Assembly: GCF_001244545.1 (NCBI RefSeq)
Contig: NZ_LN852694.1
Location: forward strand, 440,172-504,171
Length of the DNA: 64,000 nt
Direction: 5' to 3'
Origin: Candidatus Stoquefichus sp. SB1
GTDB taxonomy: Bacteria; Bacillota_I; Bacilli_A; Erysipelotrichales; Coprobacillaceae
How positions within the stretch are numbered: the first letter of the stretch is position 1; every line of letters starts with the position of its first letter. Both the position numbers and the translations under genes were made by a program. The notes below the pieces were generated by a model that worked only from the letters and a program-made list of their open reading frames with translations, was not told the DNA's origin and did not search any database. This document shows, piece by piece, positions 12,112 to 54,935 of the stretch.

Positions 12112-12134
12112 TAAGTGATAAGGGGGAATGGATT

Positions 12135-23115: not shown

Positions 23116-24567
23116 TTATTTGTCCTCCTTTTTTATAATATTGAGATAATAGGTTGTATCACTGTTAAGTGAAAATAAGATTTTGTTTCTGAAACGTTCC
23201 CAGTTCAGGTATCCATTTGATGCATGTTTGATCAGCTTGATGCTTTTATTGCGGTTCTCTACAATCGCAGTATTCATCTTTCTGTTTTTCTCCCTGTCTA
23301 CAATCATAAAGGAATTGATGATTTCCTGCTTCCATCTTGTCAGAGTGTTGGCGAACTGGCTCATCTCTTCTATAGGACAGCACCTGAAGTCGATAATGAT
23401 TTCTTCCAGTTTTTTCTTTGCGTCTTCATAATGACACTGTCTGTAGAAACGGGTAACACTGTCCTTAAGGTCATAGGCGATATCAAGTTCTCTGTCATAC
23501 TTCACCATATAATCAAACAGATCATAATAGTTGTAGTATCCTTCCAGTCTTCTGTTGTATCTCTTTTCCTCATTGGGATCAAATATTCTGTTGTCAGTTG
23601 AGATGAACATCCAGTTAAATTTTTTAAGCACATAGTAGTGTCTGGATGCTTCCTCGTATATATATTCCTCTTCTTTTGTAAGGCCGATATTCTTCTTTTT
23701 TTGTTGAAGTTCCCTGATCTGTGTCATGTACTTTTTCTGAGCTGATATTCTGACTTTATCCATTCTTCGCCCCAGTTCCTGAACAACATGAAACTTGTCG
23801 ATACAGCAGCTTGCATTGGGAAAGACGTGTCTGGCAACAATCCTGTAGGTTTCCCACATGTCAAACGAACAGTACAGCACCTTTTCACGCTCTTCTCTGG
23901 GAATAAGCATAAAGTAGCTGATCAGGTCATCCTTTTTACGTGTTGGCAGGACATCAACAATCTTCTGGTCAGTACAGTCAACCAGCACACAGACAAATTT
24001 GCTTTTATAAGTCTTGAATGCATAAACCTCATCAATACCCAGACATGCAGGAAGAGGTCTCCTGGAAATACGGACATGATCATCAAAGATATTGATGACG
24101 GAGGTTACTGAAACATGATAACGCCTGGCAACAGATGTGAATGTTTCATTGGGAAGCTTAAGATCTCTGAGGATATTGGATACAGTCGCTACAGAGATTC
24201 TGGAACTTCCAAATACAAAGGGATTGTGTTCAAAGAATGTTTTGTGACAGTGAGGACAGCGATATCTTCTGGCTTCGTATATGATAAAGCACTGGGAATA
24301 ATTAAGAACGGAATGAATAATCTTTTTTTGAGAATAATCCTTAATTTTATCAGTCATCTGACCACATACAGGACACTGATGATATTTGACATTCAGTCTG
24401 ATGCAGATGTAAATTCCATCTGACTGATGGGTGATTCTGAATTCCTGAATATCATCTTTTTCAAGATTGAAGAACTTGAGAATATCATTTTCGGAAATAA
24501 TAGGCATAATGGTAGTATTGAGCAGTTCACCATCTTCCAAAAGAGGTGGTGCATCGATAGCCTTCAT
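23116..24567 (-). CDS. ISL3-family transposase
   Basis: The 483-residue protein has an N-terminal zinc finger (YHQCPVCGQMT, then RRYRCPHCHKTF) and a helix-turn-helix region (ETFTSVARRYHVSVTSVINI). The DDE-type core includes CLGIDEVYAFK, FVCVLVDCTDQKIVDVLPTR, DMWETYRIVARHVFPNA and DKFHVVQ. These are ISL3 hallmarks. The ATG at 24567 is preceded by AAAGGAGAT. Longer in-frame starts lack a site and run through non-conserved sequence. The frame is intact, so the element may still move. Confidence 0.93.
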   Translation of the reverse strand: MKAIDAPPLLEDGELLNTTIMPIISENDILKFFNLEKDDIQEFRITHQSDGIYICIRLNVKYHQCPVCGQMTDKIKDYSQKKIIHSVLNYSQCFIIYEARRYRCPHCHKTFFEHNPFVFGSSRISVATVSNILRDLKLPNETFTSVARRYHVSVTSVINIFDDHVRISRRPLPACLGIDEVYAFKTYKSKFVCVLVDCTDQKIVDVLPTRKKDDLISYFMLIPREEREKVLYCSFDMWETYRIVARHVFPNASCCIDKFHVVQELGRRMDKVRISAQKKYMTQIRELQQKKKNIGLTKEEEYIYEEASRHYYVLKKFNWMFISTDNRIFDPNEEKRYNRRLEGYYNYYDLFDYMVKYDRELDIAYDLKDSVTRFYRQCHYEDAKKKLEEIIIDFRCCPIEEMSQFANTLTRWKQEIINSFMIVDREKNRKMNTAIVENRNKSIKLIKHASNGYLNWERFRNKILFSLNSDTTYYLNIIKKEDK

Positions 24568-24635
24568 ATAAAAATCTCCTTTCATCTTGTTTCTAAGACA
24601 AAAGTAACATAGAAAAAGGGAAAGGCATACAAAAG

Positions 24636-25055
24636 TCATGTGGGAAAATAGAAAAGACAAGGATGATTTCTGCGGTTCATCCAGCATAAGGTTATGTATC
24701 TAAGGGGGATATCGTGATATTTATGGATGAGAAAAAAGCGATGAGAGGAATAAGTGAACTGAGAATAATTGACAGATGAACAGATAACAGAGAAATCGGC
24801 AATTGAATAGGGAATCATTTCCTGAATAAGAACTGCATGAGTCACACCGCAATCAGTGCATTGAACTCTCAGTATTCTGATAACAATATCTCTATTGAAG
24901 AAATCAGTATGACGATCATAGTAGGCATGAAAAGTCCAGCTGTGGGAATGACAACTGGAGCACTCAATTTTATTGAAGTTGATGCTTCTAATCAATCTGT
25001 CATAAACAAACTGATTGAAAGGCTTGATTTTTTTGTGAGTTTGAATTATTATCAT
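24636..25055 (-). CDS. DUF6431-like zinc-binding protein, IS accessory (possibly truncated)
   Basis: The 139-residue frame has a zinc-finger pair, IECSSCHSHSWTFHAYYDRH and RVQCTDCGVTHAVL, followed by IPYS. This pattern is typical of DUF6431 proteins encoded next to transposases. The last 60 residues do not look like the usual continuation, so the C-terminus may be frameshifted. ATG 25055 has no strong ribosome binding site. A second short frame from ATG 25116 in another phase (to 25000) may be its original N-terminus, joined near an A7 run. It stands 68 bases upstream of the transposase. Confidence 0.55.
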   Translation of the reverse strand: MIIIQTHKKIKPFNQFVYDRLIRSINFNKIECSSCHSHSWTFHAYYDRHTDFFNRDIVIRILRVQCTDCGVTHAVLIQEMIPYSIADFSVICSSVNYSQFTYSSHRFFLIHKYHDIPLRYITLCWMNRRNHPCLFYFPT

Positions 25056-25211
25056 AGTGTTCTTCAATAGGACAGGATAAATAATCAAACTTTGGTCGGG
25101 GCGATTGTTTATCCATTTTCTTTCTGTAAATTTTATAAAATAATCATATAATGATTTAGAGAAAATATAAAGAGAAAGAACCCCATAGAAATGAAAAGAA
25201 GAAACAATATA

Positions 25212-30772: not shown

Positions 30773-30799
30773 ACAAAAAATCTATATTTGCTTATAGAT
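30773..30799 (-). terminator. Terminator of the Nudix gene
   Basis: On the minus strand ATCTATA and TATAGAT (30799-30793 and 30786-30780) form a stem with a six-base loop, followed by TTTTTTG. The gene's TAA stop lies in the first arm. Confidence 0.75.
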
Positions 30800-31319
30800 C
30801 TTTTGTGTATGCATACATAATAGCGATGACAGTCTTAGCATCGACGATTTCACCATTTAAAACTTTTTTATAGGCTTCGTTGATATCCATTTTTATGACA
30901 TCAATAAATTCATCATCATCACATTCGAGTGAGTCATCAACTTCTTTGAAATCAATAGCTTCATACAAATAAAGCCATTCACTCGTATAGCCTGGAGATG
31001 GTAAAACTTTCATTATAAATTTCATTTCTTGGGCACGATGATTTGTTTCTTCTTCTAGTTCACGAAAAGCACAGGCTTTGGTATCTTCGTCTTTTTCAAG
31101 TTTTCCAGCTGGAATTTCTAATGTTTGAATACGATTGGGATATCTAAATTGCTGAACAAGCAGAATCTGATGATTTTTAACTGCTAAAATGCAGACACCA
31201 CCATGATGATAAACAACTTCACGAAAAGCATGATGTCCATCTTCTAATTCAACTTCTTCTTTTGTAACTTGCATGATTTTTCCATCAAAAATAACAGTTC
31301 GATTTAATTCTTTTTCCAT
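30792..31319 (-). CDS. nudF: Nudix hydrolase, ADP-ribose pyrophosphatase type
   Basis: The 175-residue protein matches the ADP-ribose pyrophosphatase subfamily, which cleaves ADP-ribose to AMP and ribose-5-phosphate. It has VVYHHGGVCILAV, QFRYPNRIQTLEIPAGKLE and the Nudix box G-K-L-E-K-D-E then RELEEETN near residue 85, then LPSPGYTSEWLYLYEA. AAAGGAG lies nine bases before ATG 31319 and three before ATG 31325, so the shorter form is preferred. It is a single-gene unit with a TATAAT on the minus strand at 31348-31343. Confidence 0.9.
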   Translation of the reverse strand: MEKELNRTVIFDGKIMQVTKEEVELEDGHHAFREVVYHHGGVCILAVKNHQILLVQQFRYPNRIQTLEIPAGKLEKDEDTKACAFRELEEETNHRAQEMKFIMKVLPSPGYTSEWLYLYEAIDFKEVDDSLECDDDEFIDVIKMDINEAYKKVLNGEIVDAKTVIAIMYAYTKDL

Positions 31320-31351
31320 TATCATTTCTCCTTTTGTTAATTATTATACCA

Positions 31352-31456
31352 CAAAAAGAAAAGAAAGTACGCGGGGGAGCATACTTTCTCATTCTCTCTA
31401 TTATTTACACGTTAGGGTGATAATAGGGGGGTATGATTAAGTGAACATCACTTAAC
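31352..31456 (-). ncRNA. Candidate small regulatory RNA with C-rich loops
   Basis: On the minus strand TTTACA (31490-31485), 16 bases, then TATAAT (31468-31463) form a good promoter with start near 31456. The predicted RNA of about 105 bases begins with a perfect hairpin TTAAGTGA-TGT-TCACTTAA (31455-31437). It continues with an unpaired run of six C (31431-31426) and ends with AGAAAGTA / TACTTTCT (31389-31382 and 31369-31362). That last stem has loop TGCTCCCCCGCG and a TTTCTTTTT tail, an intrinsic terminator. No convincing ORF or T-box/riboswitch pattern is present. C-rich loops of this type pair with Shine-Dalgarno sequences in other Firmicutes sRNAs. Confidence 0.65.
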
Positions 31457-31554
31457 AATATCATTATACCAAATATTTTAAAGTTGTAAAGGCTTTCAAA
31501 TGATTTTTGTGTATTTTTTGGGAGAAATTCTGTATAATAGGAGACGGTGATAAA

Positions 31555-32529
31555 ATGAAAAAAATAGAAATAGATGACAATCATGCAAATCAGAGAATTG
31601 ATAAATATTTAAAGAAATTATTGTGCCAGGCACCTACACAATTGATTTATAAAATGTTAAGAAAAAAAGATATTAAGGTGAATGGTGTAAGAGTTAAAGA
31701 GAATTATATTCTTCAAAAAGGTGATATTGTTGAATTATTTTTATATGATGATAAATTCAAGGAATATACTCAACCTCAGACAATTTATGATTTAAAGATT
31801 GAATTTTCTGTATTGTATGAAGATGAAAATATTTTAATTGTGGGAAAACCTGCAGGATTATTGGTACATGAAGATATTAATGAAGATTTAAATACATTAT
31901 CACATCAGGTATTAACTTATCTTTATAAACAAGGTGAATATGATCCTGAAGCATCTTTGGGATTTACTCCAGCTCCAGTTCATCGCCTTGATCGCAATAC
32001 CAGTGGAATTGTCATTTTTGGAAAGACGATGCGTGCTTTACAAGATTTAAATGAAATGATTAAAAAGCGTCATTGTATTGAAAAGAGTTATTTAACGATT
32101 TGTAAAGGTTATATGCCTTCAGATGATTTAATTGGTTATATGAAAAAAGAAAGTGATCAATCATTATCAAGAGTCGTTCATAAAGAGACCCCAGGAGCAT
32201 TAATGATGCATACAATTGTTGAAAATAAAGAAGCTAATCAAGATTATTCTTTACTAAAAGTCAAATTGGTTACTGGACGTACACATCAAATTCGTATTCA
32301 TTTAGCAAGTTTAGGACATCCTATTATAGGTGATAGTAAGTATGGTGATTTTGAATTAAATAAAAAAATAAAAAAACAATATCATTTAAATTATCAGTTT
32401 TTACATGCATACCAGATTCAATTTGTTAAACCTATTGGTTGTTTGAAATATTTACAGGATTTTGTTGTGACATGTCCATTGCCTCAAAATCTGCTAAAAA
32501 TTAAAAATGAAATCTTTGGTAAAAAATGA
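31555..32529 (+). CDS. RluA-family 23S rRNA pseudouridine synthase with S4 domain
   Basis: The 324-residue protein has an N-terminal S4 RNA-binding domain (NQRIDKYLKKLL, then KKDIKVNGVRVKENYIL) and the RluA catalytic core with PVHRLDRNTSGIVIFGKT, whose aspartate is the nucleophile, near residue 145. GRTHQIRIHLASLGHPI follows near 245. Similar proteins modify uridines of 23S rRNA (RluC/RluD type). The exact site is unknown. ATG 31555 was chosen because a TATAAT (31533-31538) and AGGAG lie just upstream, inside the longer frame that starts at 31507. Confidence 0.9.
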   Translation: MKKIEIDDNHANQRIDKYLKKLLCQAPTQLIYKMLRKKDIKVNGVRVKENYILQKGDIVELFLYDDKFKEYTQPQTIYDLKIEFSVLYEDENILIVGKPAGLLVHEDINEDLNTLSHQVLTYLYKQGEYDPEASLGFTPAPVHRLDRNTSGIVIFGKTMRALQDLNEMIKKRHCIEKSYLTICKGYMPSDDLIGYMKKESDQSLSRVVHKETPGALMMHTIVENKEANQDYSLLKVKLVTGRTHQIRIHLASLGHPIIGDSKYGDFELNKKIKKQYHLNYQFLHAYQIQFVKPIGCLKYLQDFVVTCPLPQNLLKIKNEIFGKK

Positions 32530-39889: not shown

Positions 39890-40105
39890 GTCAAATCGTT
39901 GAAAAAGAAGAGTATTTATGTTTTTCTTGATAGAGAGGAAATGGTTGGTGGAAATTTCCAAGGAAATATAAAGAAAGCTACTTTGGAGAGTGATGAAAAC
40001 ATCAACGCATAGTCAGCGTTATCGACTTAGAGAGCATAGTCATTTGATTATGAATAAGGATGGTACCGCGATATAGTCGTTCCTTGCAAGGAATGACTTT
40101 TTTAT
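39890..40105 (+). promoter_or_regulatory. T-box riboswitch leader, alanine-specific, upstream of alaS
   Basis: The leader ends with the canonical T-box sequence AAGGATGGTACCGCG (40056-40070) and a terminator with stem AGTCGTTCCTT / AAGGAATGACT (40075-40085 and 40088-40098) and T6 tail. In Stem I the specifier position reads GAAA-GCT-ACTTTGGAGAG, with GCT at 39977-39979, an alanine codon. Uncharged tRNA-Ala would bind and favour the antiterminator, raising alaS expression. Specifier and downstream gene agree. Confidence 0.95.
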
Positions 40106-50220: not shown

Positions 50221-50234
50221 GGGGGAAATGAAAA

Positions 50235-50897
50235 ATGAATGAAAAAAGACAGATGTCTGATACCATTCGTATTGGTATTATGCTAGCTATTGTTGGGGGC
50301 TTTTTGGATGCATATACCTATTTATGTCGTGGTGAAGTTTTTGCCAATGCCCAAACAGGGAATATGGTTTTATTTGGAATCAAACTCATTAAACAAAATT
50401 ATATTCAGGCACTCTATTATCTTTTACCTATATTGGCTTTTCTAATAGGTGTAATTGTGGCTGAGATGATTAAACGTCATTTCTTAGAAAATACAAAAGT
50501 CCATTGGCGACAAATCATATTATGTATAGAATGGTTTGTCTTGCTCATTGTCGCTTTTTTACCACAAGAATATAATATGTTATGTAATATCATGATTTCT
50601 TTTGTATGCTCATTACAAGTCGAAAGTTTTAGAAAATTTCACGGTATGCCATATGCTTCTACAATGTGTACAGGTAATTTAAGAAGTGCAACTGAAAATT
50701 TATATCTCTATTTTCATACAAAAGATAAAAAGACTCTACAAAGGAGTCTTGACTATTACATTATTATTTTATTCTTTATTATTGGAGCAAGTTTAGGTGT
50801 TATCTTTATCAATATATTGAATATACAAGCTATTTTGATATCGATGCTTTTTTTAATTCTGATTACGATTTTTATGTTTGTTGAACAGGTTGGTTAA
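50235..50897 (+). CDS. DUF1275 (YoaK-like) membrane protein
   Basis: The 220-residue protein has six or so helices and the family features GGFLDAYTYLCRGEVFANAQTG near the N-terminus and ASTMCTGNLRSATE in the middle. DUF1275 proteins are membrane proteins of unknown function. The ribosome binding site is G-rich (GGGGGA at 50221-50226). A terminator at 50884 overlaps its stop. Confidence 0.9.
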   Translation: MNEKRQMSDTIRIGIMLAIVGGFLDAYTYLCRGEVFANAQTGNMVLFGIKLIKQNYIQALYYLLPILAFLIGVIVAEMIKRHFLENTKVHWRQIILCIEWFVLLIVAFLPQEYNMLCNIMISFVCSLQVESFRKFHGMPYASTMCTGNLRSATENLYLYFHTKDKKTLQRSLDYYIIILFFIIGASLGVIFINILNIQAILISMLFLILITIFMFVEQVG

Positions 50898-54674: not shown

Positions 54675-54935
54675 TAAAAACAAAAAACACTCGCCTAGTA
54701 GAGGGCGAGTGATCGCGGTACCACCTCAGTTTGTTATATTTTCACAAATATAACCTTCGTAAGTTGAAAACTTTTCATAAATAACGTTATGACTCCGGTT
54801 ACTCCTTATCAGAATAACAACTCCGTGGTGAATTCAAAACTCTTTATCGTATGATTTGCACCAGCCATCATATCTCTTATGTCTCAAGAATTTCTACTAT
54901 GTCACATCAATGTTTTTGTTTTTATAAATGTATAT
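54675..54935 (-). promoter_or_regulatory. T-box riboswitch leader, predicted phenylalanine-specific
   Basis: On the minus strand the leader carries the T-box core GGTGGTACCGCG (54725-54714) and a terminator CACTCGCC / GGCGAGTG (54711-54704 and 54695-54688) with tail TTTTTTG. In Stem I the sequence GAA-TTC-ACC-ACGGAG has the usual context of a specifier, giving TTC (54832-54830), a phenylalanine codon. Uncharged tRNA-Phe would therefore turn on the importer. The specifier is read by eye and should be checked by folding. Upstream of the promoter, 54970-55064 holds nothing recognisable. Confidence 0.85.

Follow-up and report, generated by a model that had tools for sequence, protein, structure and literature searches.

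A conserved C-rich small RNA gene of the Coprobacillaceae predicted to pair with G-rich Shine-Dalgarno sequences

The small RNA locus and its neighbours

The window analysed here is a stretch of 64,000 nucleotides from the 3.59 Mb genome of Candidatus Stoquefichus sp. SB1, whose congener is Candidatus Stoquefichus massiliensis. Between a Nudix hydrolase gene and a divergent pseudouridine synthase gene, its minus strand carries a predicted small RNA (sRNA) with its own putative promoter and intrinsic terminator (Table 1). A reading of the sequence alone had described a TTTACA-16-TATAAT promoter, a perfect 5' hairpin, a run of six C and a terminator with a C-rich loop on this strand, in a unit without an open reading frame. 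All of these elements are present in the sequence, and the list of open reading frames contains none of note in the transcribed part. The terminator loop itself is UCCCCC, the sequence CTCCCCCG previously given for it taking in the closing pair.

Table 1. Features of the sRNA locus and its surroundings, with two possible target sites, in window coordinates.
Feature	Position	Strand	Remarks
GGGGGA Shine-Dalgarno sequence of CsbB/PgfS-like glycosyltransferase gene	12122..12127	+	Possible target
Nudix hydrolase gene (ADP-ribose pyrophosphatase type)	30792..31325	-	Conserved downstream neighbour, outside the RNA; NudE the best match, below cut-off
TATAAT preceded by TG, separate putative promoter of the Nudix gene	31343..31348	-	Recurs there in most relatives
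sRNA, predicted, about 104 nt	31353..31456	-	Predicted start G31456; predicted end in U-rich tail
Intrinsic terminator hairpin	31361..31390	-	Loop UCCCCC (31378-31373), second proposed seed
Middle hairpin CUAUUAUCAC-CCUAAC-GUG-UAA-AUAAUAG	31398..31426	-	
Unpaired C6, followed by UAUUA	31426..31431	-	Main proposed seed; reverse complement UAAUAGGGGG
5' hairpin GUUAAGUGA-UGU-UCACUUAAU	31436..31456	-	Relatives show A-U to G-U replacements and some pairs altered on both sides
Promoter: -35 TTTACA (31490-31485), 16-nt spacer, -10 TATAAT (31468-31463), TG before -10	31463..31490	-	Kept in homologues
cre-like box TGAAAGCCTTTACA	31485..31498	-	Overlaps the -35 hexamer; family consensus TGWAASCCTTTACA
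RluA-family pseudouridine synthase gene	31507..32529	+	Divergent neighbour; likely start 31555; TIGR00005 above cut-off
GGGGGA Shine-Dalgarno sequence of DUF1275 gene (50235-50897)	50221..50226	+	Nearest relative also GGGGG: TTTTTAGGGGGAAATGAAAA vs TTTTTTGGGGGTAAAAA

The computed folding energy of the sRNA is -32.3 kcal/mol, compared with -9.9 +/- 2.5 kcal/mol for shuffled sequences (z = -8.9). The C run after the 5' hairpin reads UCAUACCCCCC, five of its six C's being unpaired with a probability near 1 in the computed fold, and a U-rich tail downstream of the terminator hairpin reaches 31353. A promoter scan performed at chance overall (6 found, 6.1 expected), with the sRNA promoter as its top-scoring site (11/12), while a terminator scan found 3 sites where 0.2 were expected. 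Searching the locus against Rfam returned no family at the gathering threshold.

Conservation and structure across the Coprobacillaceae

The 191-bp locus matched 28 of 60 relatives in a DNA search, and a covariance model built from 20 copies of the sRNA gave matches at E <= 0.001 in 35 of the 43 family genomes, one of these (G004) having a disrupted copy. When the locus was read by synteny in genomes that the model did not match, three further, divergent copies came to light (in G008, G016 and G024), together with a truncated copy in G029; in G005, G010 and G015 the sRNA is truly absent between the same neighbours. Model and synteny combined place homologues in 38 of the 43 genomes, with Thomasclavelia, Faecalibacillus, Massilimicrobiota, Longibaculum, Beduini and Candidatus Stoquefichus among the carriers, genera that point to the family name Coprobacillaceae. 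No convincing copy was found outside the family in 296 genomes of the class, a result to be read knowing that few candidates were scored per genome and that the model overlooked divergent copies even within the Coprobacillaceae. One class-level candidate (L090, 33 bits) was rejected as merely a terminator hairpin with a C loop, and the phage, plasmid and viral-contig sequences searched contained no copies.

The sRNA is present once per genome. G028 is the exception, with a second, decayed copy (L012:1555-1647, 43 bits) situated 1.4 kb downstream of the first; this copy has lost the C run and the loop C's, with the frame of the RNA still recognisable. In both G004 (L088) and G029 (L320), which belong to different genera, the sRNA is broken off at a junction reading AAGGGGCTG, and this looks like the same kind of insertion.

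Conservation of the hairpins and C runs in relatives, on which the sequence-only reading had staked its proposal beforehand, is what the alignments reveal. Across 20 aligned sequences, pairing holds in 94.6% of the cells of the three-hairpin structure and eight pairs have changed on both sides, which exceeds all 500 shuffles and all slid versions. The terminator provides the best structural evidence, its stem changing freely around a C loop that stays: six of its 11 stem pairs show both-sided changes, and 34 copies display 26 distinct stems (for example GAAAGUAUGC, GAAAACGUCC, GAUAAACCAACCC and GAAAGGACGC), with a loop of C4-C5 in 33 and UCCCUC in one. The 35th copy (L319), outside this scripted count, reads GGCUUCCCCCGCUGCC. 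The C run following the 5' hairpin varies from C4 to C7 and is kept in nearly all relatives, ACCCCCUAUUAU at this position being nearly invariant; two divergent copies, L315 and L319 (G008 and G024), have it in degraded form. In the middle hairpin the outer stem is nearly invariant, so the structure there is without independent proof, and the hairpin is lost in L087 and L089.

The 5' hairpin is also a near-perfect DNA palindrome adjoining the promoter, and the locus could be conceived as conserved DNA, a palindromic operator beside the terminator of the neighbouring genes, rather than as an RNA gene. We consider this extremely improbable, given the A-U to G-U changes within the hairpin, the wholesale replacement of terminator stems around a constant C loop, a structure surpassing every shuffle, and the retention of both promoter and terminator where the neighbouring genes differ.

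Most copies occupy the same setting, between the RluA-type pseudouridine synthase gene and the Nudix gene. Since the latter lies directly downstream in most genomes, the RNA might instead be its 5' leader, an attenuator or riboswitch whose terminator gates transcription into the Nudix gene, and the stretch from the terminator to the ATG does have a weak preQ1-II-like score. At 25.9 bits, this falls well below the gathering threshold of 47 for the preQ1-II riboswitch (RF01054). No conserved pairing of an alternative (antiterminator) kind was seen, and in most genomes a separate TATAAT stands between the terminator and the Nudix start. In L064, L067, L070, L073, L079, L068, G016 and G024 at least one of the two neighbours is missing or has moved; specifically, the Nudix gene is not downstream in L073/L113, L067, L070 (L067 and L070 being short contigs) and G016/G024, while L064 and L079 have it displaced by about 600 nt and about 200 nt, respectively. 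Persistence of the sRNA where its neighbours are displaced or absent, combined with the Nudix gene having a TATAAT of its own, is evidence against a cis-acting leader, which we regard as very unlikely.

The locus is, as judged from its sequence and its conservation, a stand-alone sRNA gene. It represents a new family of a known kind that is not in Rfam; neither Rfam 15 nor the literature searched contains an sRNA family of the Coprobacillaceae. The C-rich sRNAs of Firmicutes that pair with Shine-Dalgarno (SD) sequences, a functional class and not a homology family, are autonomous transcription units with an intrinsic terminator and conserved unpaired C runs; the Coprobacillaceae sRNA is predicted to be such a unit, and its unpaired C runs are conserved.

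Shine-Dalgarno sites and candidate targets

Four GGGGGA SD sites had been reported in the window as exact complements of the C-rich loops, and four there are, at 12122, 18215, 19480 and 50221, spaced 7, 6, 4 and 8 nt respectively from the ATG. It had been suggested on this basis that the sRNA regulates surface-polymer genes, and the window is indeed rich in such sites, having four GGGGGA SDs among 57 genes compared with five GGGGG SDs among 328 genes of 16 other stretches; GGGGG occurs in nine of 385 SDs taken from this genome, whose SD statistics rest on a 320-kb sample, and four of these nine are in the window. Its CsbB-like and Ig-like genes also rank within the best 11 of 495 by duplex energy. 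Against this, the syntenic 80 kb of Ca. Stoquefichus massiliensis contains no orthologue of the three surface-polymer genes, leaving DUF1275 as the single proposed window target to keep GGGGG in the nearest relative. GGGGGA is, moreover, a generic minor SD in the family: GGGGGA-N7-ATG occurs commonly throughout the 43 genomes, and the frequency of GGGGGA relative to GGAGGA (36/178 in this genome, 15/187 in the congener, 41/96 in G016) is independent of the presence of the sRNA, for which reason GGGGGA was rejected as a genome-wide mark of a regulon. Regulation of the window's surface-polymer genes therefore seems distinctly unlikely. As the sRNA is family-wide, its conserved function cannot lie in a species-specific surface-polymer cluster, although such a cluster may have been recruited. 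What stands of the sequence-only reading is a conserved sRNA with C-rich loops, for which SD pairing is the best-supported mode of action. All 13 GGGGG runs in the window are on the plus strand and none on the minus strand.

When genes with GGGGGA sites were pooled from several genera, one gene, leuC, was common to six genomes; ilvC, which precedes it in the same operon, bears AAUAGGGGGU too (NCBIfam identities: LEU2, 685 bits, for leuC; ilvC, 457 bits). The GGGGG SD is found at ilvC in 32 of 33 sRNA-bearing genomes and at leuC in 28 of 34, or in 37 of 39 and 31 of 40, respectively, over all family genomes compared. Ten complete operons have the order leuA ilvN ilvC leuC leuD leuB ilvD ilvB, and within them GGGGG precedes ilvC in nine and leuC in all ten, as against 5/60 for leuA, ilvN, leuD, leuB, ilvD and ilvB together. 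Mean duplex energies in these operons are lowest at ilvC (-15.7 kcal/mol) and leuC (-15.3 kcal/mol), followed by ilvD (-14.3 kcal/mol) and the remaining genes (-8 to -12 kcal/mol). Many ilvC sites read AAUAGGGGGU, which is complementary over 9-10 bp to ACCCCCUAUU. Both sites are intergenic, so coding constraint offers no explanation for them, and the ilvC genes of seven other Firmicutes, a small sample taken from plasmid records, have GGAGG-type sequences instead (0/7 GGGGG). In G000:C5 the operon lies at about 769 kb, with its GGGGG SDs at L305:5922 and 7025. The ilvC-leuC intergenic region (L047:1430-1510) also contains two small hairpins and, in many genera, a conserved stretch resembling GAYRACNTACAAAG ahead of the leuC SD.

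On these patterns ilvC and leuC are the best candidates for conserved targets. Their link to the sRNA is probable rather than proven, because GGGGG is retained at ilvC in two of the three sRNA-less genera (and at leuC in one of three), which might be explained by recent loss of the sRNA, by a copy at another place that escaped detection or by something independent of the sRNA. Two sRNA hosts (G020 and G009) have no leuC orthologue; the ilv-leu operon is thus not the sole target and further targets must exist. Genes for an ABC-transporter ATPase, an ammonium transporter, DUF1700 and ECF-type proteins are possible ones, judging by their sites. For the ABC-transporter ATPase, two genera show a GGGGG SD before the gene (L140:3102 in G000, and L175 in G019).

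Other approaches to the targets were less informative. Duplex energies within a single genome, which rank ilvC 55th and leuC 43rd of 495, cannot discriminate and were dropped as a test. The base adjoining the loop C run (U or A) showed no covariation with GGGGGA/U at leuC. The extended complement AGGGGGTATG of UCAUACCCCCU was rejected, having about one non-self match per genome, mostly within genes; a perfect 11-bp site of this type precedes a gatC-like gene in the source genome, and a like site was not found elsewhere.

Promoter control and proposed mode of action

The 14-bp box TGWAASCCTTTACA covers the -35 hexamer in every copy inspected, even those with the most diverged RNA; it varies solely at its first bases, in L087 and L089, while the bases flanking it drift. 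The TGAAAGCCTTTACA version in the window matches the CcpA operator consensus TGWAANCGNTNWCA at 13 of 14 positions, its centre being CC where cre has CG. Among 344 fetched loci the box was found at the sRNA promoter only. Strict cre-type sites showed no genome-wide enrichment, and TGWAA-N4-TTWCA was rejected as the mark of a wider regulon (100 sites, control 170). The genome encodes a LacI-family protein resembling CcpA (L091), with a best TIGR01481 score of 263.7 bits (E 2.9e-78) against a cut-off of 442 bits; its helix-turn-helix (HTH) sequence is YDVAREAGVSLATVSRV, and it looks like CcpA in both HTH and hinge. In the same genome, TGAAAGCGATAACA lies upstream of the gene for acetate kinase, which is a classical CcpA target. 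Control of the sRNA promoter by CcpA is a reasonable inference from these sequences, and a CcpA-like repressor on the -35 box would probably silence the sRNA when good sugars are present.

Several characterised sRNAs of Firmicutes resemble the Coprobacillaceae sRNA in anatomy. The LhrC family of Listeria monocytogenes pairs with SDs through C-rich (UCCC) loops, including that of the terminator; it is multicopy and LisR controlled, whereas the present sRNA has one copy per genome, G028 excepted. RsaE/RoxS (RF01820) of Staphylococcus and Bacillus is likewise about 105-115 nt long and has several unpaired C-rich regions, which pair with SDs and block translation (PMC4409812, PMC8464778). Its stems and order of motifs differ, however, and the RF01820 model gave 14.1 bits (E = 8.7) against a gathering threshold of 79. 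RsaE/RoxS is regulated by ResD/Rex and targets sucCD and ppnKB, in contrast to an sRNA with a cre-like box; by inspection, no Rex/ResD-type site (TTGTGAA-N-TTCACAA) is present in the conserved promoter, where TGWAASCCTTTACA is the only conserved upstream element. FsrA of Bacillus subtilis (84 nt) has two C-rich regions and includes leuCD, of leucine biosynthesis, among its targets (PMC8464778); unlike the Coprobacillaceae sRNA, for which no Fur-type box was noted and which has no Rfam match, it is controlled by Fur and iron, and the candidate target ilvC is not an iron-sulphur enzyme. RsaI (RsaOG) of Staphylococcus aureus is repressed by CcpA and pairs with the SDs of metabolic mRNAs (PMC9266662) through a C-rich region (PMC9266662, PMC8216469). 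It differs in having G-rich regions that bind other sRNAs, of which the present RNA has none, and again there is no Rfam match. By analogy, the Coprobacillaceae sRNA would work like RsaE/RoxS, FsrA and RsaI while standing outside their sequence families.

Taken with its anatomy, this analogy makes pairing of the C runs with G-rich SDs a well-supported proposal. The RNA would be transcribed from its own promoter and ended by its own terminator, with the 5' hairpin shielding its start, and both exposed C runs, the one that follows the 5' hairpin and the one in the loop of the terminator, would pair with GGGGG in ribosome-binding sites, blocking translation and probably switching target genes off. 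We think it rather likely that this is a stand-alone, trans-acting C-rich sRNA of the SD-pairing kind, with ilvC and leuC as its best candidate targets and a CcpA-like repressor as its probable regulator.

A different role for a genuine RNA is that its C runs bind a protein, for instance one that acts in termination or decay, or form a sponge pair with a G-rich RNA; G-rich sponges of this type bind C-rich RNAs in B. subtilis and S. aureus (PMC8216469). Both the indifference of GGGGGA frequency to the presence of the sRNA and the two sRNA-less genomes with GGGGG at ilvC would fit such a role. We nevertheless judge it unlikely, since GGGGG is found family-wide at ilvC and leuC while the genes next to them, and the outgroups, have GGAGG, and known Firmicute RNAs of like anatomy pair with SDs (PMC8464778, PMC9266662).

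SD pairing could also be selective. GGGGG would bind the CCUCC of the ribosome with one G-U wobble and the CCCCC of the sRNA with five G-C pairs, whereas GGAGG would present a central A-C mismatch to the sRNA; one base could therefore separate sensitive from insensitive genes, the sRNA competing with ribosomes at GGGGG sites and leaving GGAGG genes alone. We put forward tentatively, as a conjecture somewhat short of even odds, that a single SD base (GGGGG and not GGAGG) marks mRNAs for a family-wide sRNA, and that a catabolite-controlled RNA thereby couples sugar to ilvC and leuC. The contrast would amount to a simple rule by which an SD is tuned to an sRNA with ribosome binding kept. Thomasclavelia, Faecalibacillus, Stoquefichus and other Coprobacillaceae are common gut bacteria, in which the sRNA would, if this is true, tie sugar supply to branched-chain amino acid synthesis. 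A family-wide RNA of clear anatomy, a conserved operator-like box and two concrete candidate targets make post-transcriptional control in the Coprobacillaceae directly testable.

Elsewhere in the window, two T-box leaders score above the Rfam gathering threshold, at 39890-40087 (plus strand) before alaS and at 54698-54919 (minus strand) ahead of an ABC transporter operon that includes a substrate-binding protein. A transposase-like protein spans two overlapping ORFs (23116-25088, minus strand) that the nearest relative lacks in its syntenic stretch, and looks like a recent, perhaps frameshifted, insertion.
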